From positions 1 through 52,339 of the forward strand of contig JAJYIM010000009.1 in the NCBI GenBank assembly GCA_021790115.1: 52,339 nucleotides of DNA. Direction: 5' to 3'. Shown piece after piece: positions 36,839 through 42,632 of this stretch (within the stretch, counting starts at the first letter, position 1; the number at the start of each line of letters is the position of its first letter). Source of the stretch: Actinomycetes bacterium. GTDB lineage: Bacteria; Actinomycetota; Thermoleophilia; BMS3ABIN01. A model generated the notes under the pieces. It was not told the DNA's origin, made no database searches, and worked only from the letters and a program-made list of their open reading frames with translations. Position numbers and translations under genes: made by a program.

Positions 36839-38350
36839 TTACGGCGTTCCGGCCAGCTCATTAAAGCTGTTCTTGTAAATAACCCTTTGGCTAACGAGCA
36901 GTAGCTGCCCCGAAGTGCAATTAAAACAGCCGACATAAACGGGTCCTTTCATCAGGTTGGCGAAGTGAGGCGTAATGATGCTTCCCGCCCCGACGGGAAA
37001 GTGAGTATTGCCGGTCGCCGGATTGATCATGCTTGAGCCCCCGATTGTAATGTTGGCGTCGGCCGGCGTGCCGCCCAGATTCGCGATCAGAATCCAGTCG
37101 CCGGCCATATTATTAGCCGGTTTGGAGTCATACCAGTTGAACCAGGCGTCAGTACCGATGTCAGTTGAAGGCAGCCATGGAATTGTCTGGGTTGGTCCGG
37201 GCACGGGAATGGGATAGGTCCAGGTGTTGCTGCCGAAGGTGCTGCCGGCAGGGTCAAGAAAAATCCCGTCTTCCTCGTGGAAGGAATTCTTAAATATTAC
37301 TCTTTGACTTATAATCAATTTCTCGCCGTTATTGCAATCCTGGCAGGTAACATACACCGGCCCTCCCATGCGCCCCGGGAACTGGGGCGTAATCCGTCCC
37401 CGCGGGGCAATTACAAGGAAATTGTTGCCGGGGTTTTGCGGGTCATTCATAATCTTGCCGCCGATGCTTATCTGTACGCGGACAGGATTGAAATCGCTAT
37501 TATTGGCCACCAGCACCCAGTCTCCGTTCATTCCGGCTGACTGTTTGTCGTACCAGGGAAACACGGCTCCCGCGCCCAGCTTTGAGGCCGCCACCCCTGG
37601 GACCTCAGAGAAACTGTCTTTAAAAAGCGACCGCTGACCGGCAAGAAAAGGATTGCCCGACGGCGACGACACCCTGACAGGGCCATTGGCGAGGCGCGCC
37701 GGCAACTGCCACTCAACGTGTTGACCCGGAGCGAGCGGGCCAAGCGTTGCCACTGGCGTCGCGCTGTCTGTTACATCACCGATGTAGATATTGATCAGGG
37801 TGGGCTTATCGCCCGTATTTGCTACACAGATCCAGTCTCCGTTCATTCCCCAGGAAGCAATATTGTCATACCAAGTAAAGAAGTAGTCGGTTTCCAGCCG
37901 CGCGGCGGGCACGGAATTAATCTCCTGGAAGGAATCTTTAAAAAGCACACGCTGACTGACATTTAAGGGCTCGCCGTTTGTCGACGACACTTTTACCGGG
38001 CCGTTTGTAAGGACTTTTGGCGAGTGCCACTCGACATGGCCACCGGGGGCGATGGCAGTGCCATGAGCGGCGTCAAAAGAAGCCACTGTTGTTTGCCCCA
38101 CCTCGATATTCACATCTGCGCTGCCGGCGCCGCGGTTGGTGATAAGTATCCAGTCCCCATTCATCCCCCAGGCGGCATTGTTGTCATACCAGGGGAAGTA
38201 GTAATCGTACTGGCTGGCGGCAGCAGATACTGGAGCGGGAACTGTTATTAGCAGCAATGCAGCAAGCGCCATCAACGGCAGCATAATGAATGGCGCCAGC
38301 TTGGCCGCGCGCCTTGCGGAATTTCTTGAGGTCTTTCCGGATCTCCCCAT
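36839..38350 (-). CDS. Secreted protein with four tandem repeats (WYDN..GMNGDWI...SQRV.FK.SF.E)
   Basis: N-terminal signal/TM (LAPFIMLPLMALAALLLITVPAPVSAAAS); four repeats of roughly 115-135 aa visible by eye. Confidence 0.75.
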   Translation of the reverse strand: MGRSGKTSRNSARRAAKLAPFIMLPLMALAALLLITVPAPVSAAASQYDYYFPWYDNNAAWGMNGDWILITNRGAGSADVNIEVGQTTVASFDAAHGTAIAPGGHVEWHSPKVLTNGPVKVSSTNGEPLNVSQRVLFKDSFQEINSVPAARLETDYFFTWYDNIASWGMNGDWICVANTGDKPTLINIYIGDVTDSATPVATLGPLAPGQHVEWQLPARLANGPVRVSSPSGNPFLAGQRSLFKDSFSEVPGVAASKLGAGAVFPWYDKQSAGMNGDWVLVANNSDFNPVRVQISIGGKIMNDPQNPGNNFLVIAPRGRITPQFPGRMGGPVYVTCQDCNNGEKLIISQRVIFKNSFHEEDGIFLDPAGSTFGSNTWTYPIPVPGPTQTIPWLPSTDIGTDAWFNWYDSKPANNMAGDWILIANLGGTPADANITIGGSSMINPATGNTHFPVGAGSIITPHFANLMKGPVYVGCFNCTSGQLLLVSQRVIYKNSFNELAGTP

Positions 38351-38770: not shown

Positions 38771-39709
38771 GTGAAGGAATTGATATTTAAGGCAAAGGCC
38801 GCCATTTTAAAGAAAAAGGCCGCTATCATTGTGGCCTTGGCGATAATCTTTGTGTTTGCCGTTGGTGTGGGCGTACTTTATGCTACTTCGGCTGCGCCGG
38901 ACGCCCCCCATTACAATTATTCCGAGTGTGTGAGTTGTCATTCGGATGTGGCTAACTATCATACAAACGCTGGCATTCAGCAGTACTCCGATTGCATCAG
39001 CTGTCACGGTGACAAGGTCAGCAGCCCCGATGACAAGTCCTTGTTCGATGCCGTTCACAATCAATATTATGACACTCCCCACAGGGCGCACCTGACCTCA
39101 AGCCTGCTCTCGTTCACTTGCACTACCTGCCATCAGTCGGTAGACGTCAGGGAGGAATCCGCGGCTTCTGTCCGGCGGCAGGTTGACATCACGTTGTGCG
39201 CGAAATGCCATAGTCCTTTTCCGGCGACGATGAACCCCACCTGGGCAACACAGGACTGCACGACCTGTCATTCCGACTGGCAGAGCCAGCATGCGAGCAA
39301 AGCTCCGTATGTTAATAACGCAAATATCACGGCGAGCAACTGTTACGGCTGCCACGGCGGCAGAGCCTGGTACCTAAGCGGCGCGGCTGCCCTTGGGCTG
39401 AACCGCGGCAATATCTACTGGAACGGCCTGAGCGATTACGCGGCCGGGAAGCTGTCGGTGGACTTCTCCATCACAAACAGCGGTTCGGGAACTGCGAATG
39501 GTTTGAACATCTCACAGGTCCTGTCAACAAACGGCGTTGGCGTAGCCACCCCGATGCCGTTGCCGCTGGGAGATGTGGCGGAGGGCGGCTCCAGCAATTT
39601 TACGCTGGTGTATTCAGTGCCAGGCACAGTCAGCTTGTTCTATACAACCCTGTACGCCAACGCTGTCAATGATGACAATCAGACGCAATACTGGCCTTCC
39701 AAGCCGTAG
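38771..39709 (+). CDS. Membrane-anchored hexaheme cytochrome c with C-terminal beta domain
   Basis: Six CxxCH motifs: CVSCH, CISCH, CTTCH, CAKCH, CTTCH, CYGCH; N-terminal hydrophobic anchor. Confidence 0.93.
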   Translation: MKELIFKAKAAILKKKAAIIVALAIIFVFAVGVGVLYATSAAPDAPHYNYSECVSCHSDVANYHTNAGIQQYSDCISCHGDKVSSPDDKSLFDAVHNQYYDTPHRAHLTSSLLSFTCTTCHQSVDVREESAASVRRQVDITLCAKCHSPFPATMNPTWATQDCTTCHSDWQSQHASKAPYVNNANITASNCYGCHGGRAWYLSGAAALGLNRGNIYWNGLSDYAAGKLSVDFSITNSGSGTANGLNISQVLSTNGVGVATPMPLPLGDVAEGGSSNFTLVYSVPGTVSLFYTTLYANAVNDDNQTQYWPSKP

Positions 39710-39771
39710 CCATCTCCACGAGAAGTCAAAAGTAAGGTTGCTTTTTGAAAATGAACGGAGAAAGGACTGAC

Positions 39772-39927
39772 ATGGAAGCCTTGATAAGGAAACCTGAACC
39801 GGCTGCAGACAGACTAAAGGACTATGCGCCGCCGGCTGTCGCACGGCTTGGCAACATTGCGGAGGTCACCCGCGAGTGCTCCAACTGGCAGTGCAGCGTG
39901 GTGGTGCCGCCGGCGCCACCGTCATAA
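39772..39927 (+). CDS. 51-aa putative RiPP precursor-like peptide with lasso-type leader motif
   Basis: MEALIRKPEPAADRLKDYAPPAVARLGNIAEVTRECSNWQCSVVVPPAPPS; YxxPxVxxxGxxxxxT matches exactly; AAAGGA Shine-Dalgarno-like site 5 nt upstream of ATG. Confidence 0.6.
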   Translation: MEALIRKPEPAADRLKDYAPPAVARLGNIAEVTRECSNWQCSVVVPPAPPS

Positions 39928-39935
39928 GGCAGGAG

Positions 39936-40022
39936 ATGAAGCGAGTGAAAAAATCCAACCTGGAAGAAAACATGCGCCATGGCAGCAGCGGCGCCGAGAG
40001 CGAAATGAAAGAGGTGAGCTAA
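39936..40022 (+). CDS. Tiny ORF (28 aa, or 25 aa from GTG 39945) abutting the molybdoenzyme gene
   Basis: MKRVKKSNLEENMRHGSSGAESEMKEVS; AGGAG about 9 nt before GTG 39945; stop directly precedes the GTG of the next gene. Confidence 0.3.
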   Translation: MKRVKKSNLEENMRHGSSGAESEMKEVS

Positions 40023-42632
40023 GTGACAGATGTTAACAGCAAGGGCGGCCTGAAATTAAATCCGACTGTTTCCCGCCGCGCCTTTCTGCAATGGGGAAGC
40101 GCCATCAGCGGGACTGCGGTAGCAAGCACCCTGTTGCCCGGGGGCCTTCTGCGGCAGGTCTTCGATTCCGACAAGGCGAAAGCCGACGACGCCGGAACCT
40201 GGATATACAGTGCATGCAACATGTGTGGCGGCTGCTCGGGCATCAATGTAAATGTCGTTGACGGCGCGGTCAGGAAAATCGAGCCTAACCCGTACAATGC
40301 GGCTGGCGTCAGCAATACCTGTATTAACGATACTAATGACTCAGCTGACTTTGTTAACGCCACGAGCGGGTGGGGCGCCGGCATGTGCCCCAAGGGCAAC
40401 TCCGGGTATAAGTCGCTTTACGACCCGGACCGCATCAAGACGCCCATGAAGCGGGACCCGAGCAGTCCCCGCGGCGTCGGCGCAGTCTTCAATCCCATCA
40501 CTTGGGATGACGCCCTGAACGAGATCACAACGTATCTGCAGGGCCTCAAGGCCGAGCAAAGCGGTAATGGCGCCCATCAGCTGCTCTTCTTCTCTGAGGA
40601 CGGCATAACCGGCAATAATCCACAGCAGGATTTTTGCAAAATGTACGGAACGCCGAACTATATCCAGCACACCAGCTTATGCGACGTCGCCAGGAAGAGG
40701 GCCTTCAGCGTCCCCTTCGGCGACGAGCGGCCTGTGCCGGATTTCGCCCACGCCAAATATGCTCTTATCTTTGGCTGGAACTTCCTTTCCGCCACCAAGT
40801 GGTCGCACTTGCCCCGCATTGCGCGCCAGTTCTTTGACAACGGCGGGCGGATGGTGGTCATTGACCCTGTTTTCAGCAATACAGCGGCGGTAGCCTGCAG
40901 GAACGGCGGTCAGTGGGTGCCGATAAAACCGGGCACCGACGGGGCCTTGGCGCTGGCACTTGCCTACGTGCTTATCAATGAGAATCTCTATAATTCTGCC
41001 TTCGTCAATGCCAACGTAATCGGTTTTCAAGCGTTTAGCGATTATGTAAAAGGCGTCAGCGACGGCACCGCCAAGGATCCTAACTGGGCCGAAGGCAAAA
41101 CGGGCGTGCCGGCCGCCACAATCGTCAGCCTTGCCCGTGAAATCGGCGATTCCAACAACTACCCGGCAGTGATCGACACCTGGTCGGGGCCGGGGCATCA
41201 CACCAACGGCACCCAGGGCGGCCGGGCCATCTCGGCGCTGCTGGCCTTGACCGGCCAGATAGGCAGCAAGGGCAACCAGGTGTTCACCAACCGCTTGGGT
41301 CCATCGGCGCGGACGGCCACCAACACCCACGATAGCTCCTTAAACCGTCACCGCATCGATGGCCTGGGACAGCCGTTTAGCCAAAACGGCTTCCCCCTGG
41401 GTCATGGATCGGGAATCGTCCTTCGCGCCCGCGACGTTATCTATGATTCTGACCTCTCAGCAGATCAGTACTATGCCAAGTACCCCTATCTGGGAAGCAG
41501 CGCAGCGGACGCAGATACAAACCGGCCCAAAGCAGCCATCTTTGTCTTTGACAATCTGGCCATGAACTCATCGAACGTTCAGAAGAACATCGACGCCTTG
41601 AACAAGCTGCAATACGTTGTCTCAATCGATACGCATCTGAGCGAGACCGCCCAAATGGCTGACATCATACTCCCGGGCGCCAACTATCTGGAGCGCTACG
41701 ATTTCACAGTCAACTGGGTCACGTTTTACAGCTTCGGCCTGCGGCAACCGACTGTCGGCTCCTGGGTGGGGAATCCCTACCGCGATGAAATCGGCATCAT
41801 TATGGAGCTGGGCCGGAGGCTCGGACTCAAAGGCGACGCCGGCAGCACGGCTCCCGGTGACTTCAGCATGACGGAAGAGCAATATCTGGGCCAGCAGTTG
41901 CTGCTGAATTCCACGATCAAGGGGAACCTGTATCCCTCGGGAGACCCCACGAATATGGCCGACTGTGACGCAGCCCTGAACGCTCTTAAGGCGCTGCCGG
42001 GAGCGGTTTGGCCAACCCTGAATGATCTTGTGGCCAATATCAGCAAGTGGGGCACCACGTATGGAATAATCAGCAGACTTAAGACGGTTGTTGGCGGCAG
42101 CCAGAAGATCGTCCTCAATTCCTACAGTGGCACCGACGCCGGATCCGGCACCGCCGACGCCATTGCTGGTTATAAGTCTCTGCAAACGGCAGGCTACGAC
42201 GCTCTGCCCGCTTACAGCGACCCGGTCGACGCTCCCGGACAGCTTGGCTACGACGGCTATCCATTCCACATGGTCTCCTGGAAACAGTCTGAACACACTC
42301 ACACGCGCACGTTCAACAATGTCTGGCTGATGGAGATGAAGGGGACCAATCCCTGCCTGATCAACAAGTCGGTCGCCGACAGCATGGGCATCAAGAACGG
42401 CGACGCCATCAAAATCGAATCTCCCATTGCGACAGTGGACGCCACTGCTTTCCCGGTAGAGGGAATCGAGCCGACTACCGTCGGTGTCATGCATGGTTTT
42501 GGCCACTGGGCCTTGGGATCAGTCGCCGAAGGCAAAGGCACGGCTGCGGGGCGCTTGATGCCCGGCAAGCCTGAAGCAATATCCGGCCAGGGGATCAGCA
42601 AGGAAGTGGCCGTAAAAGTCTACAAGGCTTAG
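40023..42632 (+). CDS. Tat-exported molybdopterin-dependent oxidoreductase catalytic subunit (DMSO reductase superfamily, Cys-ligand Psr/Phs/Ttr/Arr-like)
   Basis: Tat signal VSRRAFLQWGSAISG; 4Fe-4S CNMCGGCSG...MCPKG; SLCDVARKRA around the Mo-ligand position; ADIILPGANYLER. Confidence 0.93.
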   Translation: MTDVNSKGGLKLNPTVSRRAFLQWGSAISGTAVASTLLPGGLLRQVFDSDKAKADDAGTWIYSACNMCGGCSGINVNVVDGAVRKIEPNPYNAAGVSNTCINDTNDSADFVNATSGWGAGMCPKGNSGYKSLYDPDRIKTPMKRDPSSPRGVGAVFNPITWDDALNEITTYLQGLKAEQSGNGAHQLLFFSEDGITGNNPQQDFCKMYGTPNYIQHTSLCDVARKRAFSVPFGDERPVPDFAHAKYALIFGWNFLSATKWSHLPRIARQFFDNGGRMVVIDPVFSNTAAVACRNGGQWVPIKPGTDGALALALAYVLINENLYNSAFVNANVIGFQAFSDYVKGVSDGTAKDPNWAEGKTGVPAATIVSLAREIGDSNNYPAVIDTWSGPGHHTNGTQGGRAISALLALTGQIGSKGNQVFTNRLGPSARTATNTHDSSLNRHRIDGLGQPFSQNGFPLGHGSGIVLRARDVIYDSDLSADQYYAKYPYLGSSAADADTNRPKAAIFVFDNLAMNSSNVQKNIDALNKLQYVVSIDTHLSETAQMADIILPGANYLERYDFTVNWVTFYSFGLRQPTVGSWVGNPYRDEIGIIMELGRRLGLKGDAGSTAPGDFSMTEEQYLGQQLLLNSTIKGNLYPSGDPTNMADCDAALNALKALPGAVWPTLNDLVANISKWGTTYGIISRLKTVVGGSQKIVLNSYSGTDAGSGTADAIAGYKSLQTAGYDALPAYSDPVDAPGQLGYDGYPFHMVSWKQSEHTHTRTFNNVWLMEMKGTNPCLINKSVADSMGIKNGDAIKIESPIATVDATAFPVEGIEPTTVGVMHGFGHWALGSVAEGKGTAAGRLMPGKPEAISGQGISKEVAVKVYKA

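Follow-up and report, generated by a model that had tools for sequence, protein, structure and literature searches.

RiPPs are usually regarded as secreted specialised metabolites with a conserved leader and a variable core. The linear polyphosphorylated peptides (LPPs; Popov et al. 2026) belong to systems that combine an HprK-like kinase, a discrete RRE, an NTP transferase and a YxxP leader, and that have no macrolactam cyclase (PMC13381572). LPPs occur only in Bacillota, where their distribution is patchy, they are associated with a SipW-like signal peptidase and an MsbA exporter, and they are phosphorylated at S3; their precursors are clustered and have variable C termini (PMC13381572). Like the paeninodins, they are found in capsule loci, and the roles of both are unknown (PMC13381572).

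The window, i.e. the whole stretch of 52,339 nucleotides that was analysed, contains on its plus strand an ATG-initiated gene for a class 1 precursor peptide of 51 aa (39772..39927), preceded by the ribosome-binding site GGAGAAAGG (39758..39766, plus strand, recognised by its sequence). As the initial annotation had stated, it lies between the genes of a hexahaem cytochrome and a molybdopterin oxidoreductase, 62 nt behind the end of the former and 95 nt ahead of the start of the latter. The secreted c-type cytochrome (38771..39709, plus strand), which is the protein paired with this peptide, has six CXXCH motifs and scores above the Pfam cut-offs for Cytochrome_C7 and Cytochrom_c3_2; it ends with a domain, termed CTD below, at 39380..39709 (plus strand; CTD profile match 39380-39697, E 1.0e-41, 141.7 bits). 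The molybdopterin oxidoreductase (40023..42632, plus strand) belongs to the operon context and stands outside the peptide system; it is syntenic in two other MAGs, L034 (94% identity) and L037 (68%). The leader MEALIRKPEPAADRLKDYAPPAVARLGNIAEVTR (39772..39873, plus strand) contains YAPPAVARLGNIAEVT, which indeed conforms to the lasso-leader motif YxxPx(L/V)xxxGxxxxxT that had been claimed for it, and the NCBIfam model NF033521 (lasso_leader_L3) matches residues 18-34 with 19.3 bits, just over its curated cut-off of 19. If cleavage takes place as is customary for lasso B2 peptidases, the Thr of this leader would be at -2, followed after one residue by the core ECSNWQCSVVVPPAPPS (39874..39924, plus strand). 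Between the peptide gene and the molybdoenzyme gene there is also a 28-aa ORF, MKRVKKSNLEENMRHGSSGAESEMKEVS (39936-40022), with its own ribosome-binding site and a TAAGTG end at the molybdoenzyme start; it is conserved in L034, is shorter in L037, and is perhaps a translational-coupling leader. The minus strand encodes, at 36839-38350, a secreted protein with ~4 repeats of FxWYDxxxAxxMNGDWILIAN that is 85% conserved in L034 and is not a CTD protein.

The peptide is no orphan, as it had been labelled. Used as a query, it found nine matches in its own genome, and a profile of those nine found 12, about ten of them full-length (E 5e-28 to 2e-7), with incomplete copies on contigs C30 (cut by the contig end) and C12 (core lost). 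A scan of GTDB genomes gave 28 loci. One of them, L061, has neither leader nor core and was rejected as a chance hit; the other 27 come from uncultured actinobacteria (labelled Thermoleophilia, Actinomycetes, Actinobacteria or BMS3Abin01). When whole genomes were searched, the peptide turned up in all 19 members of the window's GTDB family (hereafter f1; seven genera), at 4-12 copies each, and in none of 41 genomes from other families of the same class. Across a phylum sample of 396 genomes, full-length matches are confined to f1. Leader-only matches in another family, f12, were not accepted as members, as they are ordinary tandem peptides with lasso-like leaders, other cores and no CTD. Outside f1, L166-L168, which come from a different family of this phylum, contain small peptides in tandem of the type YxKPElxEHENLNEVTKG with diverse short cores, some of which adjoin genes whose products resemble B12-binding radical SAM proteins. 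L034 and, from a different genus, L037 preserve the synteny of the whole window operon including the peptide, and all ten peptide pairs compared have a dN/dS below 1 (0.06-0.64; 0.44 for the window peptide against L034). A chance ORF, which the initial annotation had still allowed for, is ruled out by these paralogues, orthologues and dN/dS values; what exists is a gene family with a common leader/core anatomy that is restricted to one GTDB family. A dispersed noncoding repeat of ~150 bp (..GAGCGAAAAGGCGATGGGCAAGGACG..), possibly a MITE/REP-like element, lies near several peptide loci (L032 end, L027:8207-8488, L010:7815-8507, L099).

Most copies, across seven genera, lie directly downstream of a gene for a secreted protein. 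In their main parts the paired proteins are unrelated (multihaem cytochrome c, rhodanese, YVTN propeller, NosD beta-helix, Ig-like), and all of them carry the same C-terminal beta-sandwich of ~107 aa, the CTD; in the window cytochrome this is the last third of the protein. The CTD is not covered by any model of Pfam or NCBIfam; AF2 predicts an Ig-like beta-sandwich with high confidence (pLDDT about 95), and a fold search returned generic Ig-like neighbours only (TRAP subunits, ApaG, adaptin ears). There are 11-39 CTD copies per f1 genome and, marginal hits aside, essentially none outside f1 in the 396 genomes of the phylum. In 48 CTD-peptide pairs the distance from the CTD stop to the peptide profile match is 13-112 nt, and at 40 loci from further genera the gene directly upstream encodes a CTD protein in 25 cases, a LOG-like (LOG/TIGR00725-like) protein in 5 and EF-G in 4, the last two names having been assigned by reading the sequences and not by a tool. 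About half of the CTD genes have no peptide gene behind them. Peptide genes and CTD-bearing secreted proteins are genetically paired, and we found no description of such a pairing in open-licence papers. The initial annotation, correct as to the genes of the locus, missed both the CTD of the cytochrome and the paralogous peptides, and the respiratory or molybdoenzyme function that it considered is not supported: the cytochrome is merely one of many partners, and what the partners have in common is the CTD and not redox chemistry. When CTD and peptide were modelled as one read-through chain, AF2 gave a pLDDT of about 95 for the CTD and of 71-81 for the core, with a strand at SCSVT, which suggests that the core may contact the CTD; the docked strand was seen only when the alignment was larger, and some peptide columns of that alignment wrongly contained a few CTD residues; in a first model, from a 7-row alignment, the peptide had a pLDDT below 50.

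The family leader reads YxxPx[LV]xxxxN[LI]xx[IVL]T, where Y, P and T are the same in all 48 sequences, and continues into the core with the consensus YxKPxLvKHxNLKxxTFEC. The core is almost invariant, E-C-x-x-W-x-C-S-V-x-V-P, and C2, W5, C7, S8, V9, V11 and P12 do not vary at all in the 48 CTD-peptide pairs; the absence of Asp and Glu from core positions 7-9, noted before for the window peptide, extends to the whole family, which has C-S-[VI] there. Core position 4 is N, D, Q, A or G according to the species. Core identity is 0.88 within genomes and 0.76 between genomes, whereas the leader, with 0.65 and 0.64, differs little. Gene conversion was considered as the source of this homogeneity and rejected, since synonymous-codon divergence is almost as high in the core (0.39) as in the leader (0.46), and in genome G013 the identical Ala4 is even written by GCA, GCC and GCG. 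Being alike at the protein and not at the codon level, the cores are under selection for their protein sequence, and their homogenisation within genomes indicates that selection favours a single peptide per species, shared by all copies. Such a pattern would be expected if all copies supplied one pool of one peptide that is recognised by a common partner, and the peptides behind LOG-like genes have the same core as the rest of their genome. The leader alone tracks its paired CTD gene (Mantel r 0.35, 0/3000 within-genome shuffles), as is expected of pairs that are inherited together. Pairwise coevolution of core and CTD was rejected, as the 48 pairs show no covariation beyond genome identity, which is consistent with a shared peptide and yet gives no signal of pairwise binding. 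The f1 genomes also contain class 2 precursors (L172-L186, L086:6500-6667), which have the same leader, retain only WxCS of the core and end in His/Asp/Gly- or Ser/Asp-rich tails of metal-binding appearance; CTD genes are found near 6 of 15 loci of this class. Because WxCS is retained here, it is likely the modification site. In EF-G-associated copies of several genera (L124, L135, L141, L153), Phe replaces the Trp of the core (ECPxFxCSI).

The window itself encodes no RRE, B2 or cyclase, which agrees with the initial annotation. The rest of its genome does have RREs and a B2, in the form of three PqqD-type proteins and one Transglut_core3 protein (B2) on other contigs. Contig C58 has adjacent genes for an HprK-like kinase, a lasso-type PqqD protein and the lasso B2; the B2 scores 38.9 bits with lasso_biosyn_B2 (cut-off 33), and the RRE best resembles lasso PqqD models. 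Of 12 f1 genomes, 11 have B2, the exception being 92% complete, and none of 7 genomes outside f1 has it. It neighbours HprK and RRE genes in every fetched stretch except L092, and the Cys/His of B2 and the His-Lys-Asp-Asp motif of the kinase (as described in PMC9266682) are invariant. A DUF2079 membrane protein is often encoded near the B2 cluster, which is surrounded by glycosyltransferase genes; of 13 f1 genomes, 10 have NTP_transf_5, which shares a contig with the B2 cluster in seven of these; it was not found in the window's own genome. Neither a SipW/SpI-like leader peptidase nor an MsbA-like exporter was seen around the B2 clusters examined, where B2 takes the place of the peptidase, and no candidate exporter was found. 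The HprK-RRE-B2 cluster is conserved in the same genomes as the peptide, and the cyclase that a lasso peptide needs is absent. As the cluster usually lies apart from the precursor genes, the link between them depends on this co-occurrence and on neighbours: seven genomes have a CTD gene inside the fetched B2 neighbourhood, and several have a second HprK gene between a CTD-peptide pair and the following CTD protein. The window's own genome contains two more loci of interest. At the edge of contig C57 (L028:4-1817), the contig end cuts a set of genes for an HprK-like kinase, a PqqD-type RRE and a family-2 glycosyltransferase that weakly resembles the peptide S-glycosyltransferase SunS; at the end of contig C39 (L029:8962-10591), a PqqD-type RRE, a radical SAM/SPASM protein and a Cys-rich 61-aa peptide (..RRPYRAPAVERVPLVAEEAVLFNCKCQAPQVSGPPTGWCSG..) form a candidate separate RiPP cluster.

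How might these components act together? We regard it as rather likely that the 51-aa ORF encodes the precursor of an RRE-guided linear RiPP that is made in trans and whose product has CTD surface proteins as targets or partners, both the RiPP chemistry and the CTD binding being what we infer from the genomic data. The earlier idea of an RRE-guided precursor with Cys-based chemistry would stand in so far as the peptide appears to be RRE-guided and non-lasso and has two invariant Cys residues in a C-x4-C core, with RRE and B2 encoded on other contigs. About ten dispersed and nearly interchangeable precursors would give rise to a single linear RiPP per species. By analogy to its homologues (PMC9266682, PMC13381572), the stand-alone PqqD-type RRE would bind YxxPx[LV] of the leader; the B2 cysteine peptidase, again judged by its homologues, would cleave after Thr-x and leave a core of ~15-17 residues (ECxxWxCSVxVPxxP), and HprK-like kinases would, as their homologues do, phosphorylate this core; the invariance of WxCS makes its serine, Ser8, the most probable site. 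The neighbouring DUF2079 and NTP-transferase enzymes may add a sugar to the core. Once mature, the peptide would serve at the surface as an anchor, tag or assembly factor that works with the Ig-like CTD of the secreted proteins encoded beside it and perhaps supplies this domain with a beta-strand. The position of the genes behind CTD genes would match the supply of peptide to that of surface proteins, with the peptide itself being shared in trans. As a tentative and more specific proposal, the one modified peptide of each species, encoded by many dispersed genes, could bind or be joined to the CTD of unrelated secreted proteins and thereby anchor, complete or tag them.

Could the peptide still be a true lasso precursor whose cyclase is encoded elsewhere? 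The YxxPx[LV] leader with Thr at -2 and the presence of B1 (RRE) and B2 in the genome are lasso features, and most of these genomes have Asn-synthase genes. We nevertheless reject this reading as extremely improbable, as the acceptor carboxylate at core positions 7-9 and the cyclase are both missing: the paralogue ACSNWSCSVTVPPAPAP is devoid of any side-chain carboxylate, the lasso cyclase model NF033535 reached its cut-off in none of 10 f1 genomes, and it had no match whatever in G001, which is 98% complete and contains B2 and ten or more peptides. The Asn synthases of the window's own genome (contigs C34 and C20) remain under the lasso cut-off and score higher with asparagine-synthase and EPS models (asn_synth_AEB, eps_aminotran), and the close spacing of two Asn synthases in other f1 genomes suggests that they belong to a polysaccharide locus. 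A peptide that serves only the cytochrome-molybdoenzyme complex, in redox chemistry, metal handling or maturation, could explain why the peptide is retained in the operon of L034 and L037, and C-x4-C with Trp could bind metal, in line with weak zinc-ribbon-like Pfam matches under cut-off. It is a very unlikely explanation all the same, since the same core is found behind rhodanese, NosD-type, propeller and Ig-like proteins, which share no respiratory role, and also behind LOG-like and EF-G genes.

Two further explanations accept the association with surface proteins and give it another meaning. The peptide could be a free secreted RiPP, i.e. a signal, an antimicrobial or a polysaccharide-bound product, that is only co-transcribed with surface proteins and does not have the CTD as its target; LPPs and paeninodins are located in capsule loci (PMC13381572), the B2 cluster lies amid glycosyltransferase genes, and some peptide copies are away from CTD genes. 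This appears unlikely, as CTD and peptide have been attached independently to many unrelated proteins, as class 2 precursors are likewise near CTD genes, and as a lineage-wide, multi-copy peptide with a conserved core does not resemble patchy, variable antimicrobials. A small protein that acts alone and unmodified, be it as a CTD chaperone or as a translational-coupling element, with a RiPP leader only by resemblance, would agree with the small size and with the site just behind the CTD gene. Against it, and making it distinctly improbable, are the YxxP, Thr and lasso_leader_L3 match of the leader, the co-occurrence of B2 and RRE with the peptide, and the different evolution of leader and core with a border at Thr-x.

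If the proposed linear RiPP indeed anchors, completes or tags CTD proteins, this would be a principle of protein sorting or decoration without earlier description. Compared with the usual view of RiPPs, the f1 peptides stand apart by their 4-12 precursor copies, by a core that is conserved above the leader, by homogenisation at the species level through selection, and by the tie to a new CTD. If the peptide works on the CTD, a RiPP would have a housekeeping role at the cell surface, and cyclase-less HprK/RRE systems would gain a testable function.

In PEP-CTERM/exosortase, GlyGly-CTERM and type IX CTD systems, one C-terminal domain is common to many unrelated secreted proteins. The f1 CTD is likewise found on many unrelated secreted proteins, but it is a folded domain of ~107 aa at the very C-terminus, has no visible transmembrane tail, and is encoded by genes that pair with those of RiPP precursors; none of the described CTERM or anchor models of Pfam or NCBIfam matches it, and no sorting enzyme was identified. 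With the HprK-related/PqqD systems of NCBIfam (TIGR04352, ScmC/ScmD), the f1 kinase and RRE partly score, in all cases under the curated cut-offs. Phosphorylated lasso peptides of the paeninodin/pseudomycoidin type share with the f1 set the HprK-like kinase with His-Lys-Asp-Asp, the RRE (B1), B2, the Thr at -2 and, in many genomes, a nearby nucleotidyltransferase, whereas the f1 set lacks the cyclase and the acceptor Asp or Glu and has its precursors outside the cluster. LPPs share the HprK-like kinase, the discrete RRE, the YxxP leader, the absence of a cyclase and, in many f1 genomes, the NTP transferase, and the LPP core AQSNWK resembles f1 ECSNWQ. In contrast to LPPs, the f1 set has a B2 peptidase, dispersed multi-copy precursors and CTD partners, is found in one actinobacterial family, and has a near-invariant core in which S8 is invariant and S3 is not; the LPP leader YxxPxVLxHQxIxFETxxS is also not matched by the f1 consensus, which has no FET ahead of the cleavage site. 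As it misses several LPP features and two lasso features, we place the f1 set in neither class, and by analogy its mode of action would most resemble that of a B2-processed, LPP-like linear RiPP.
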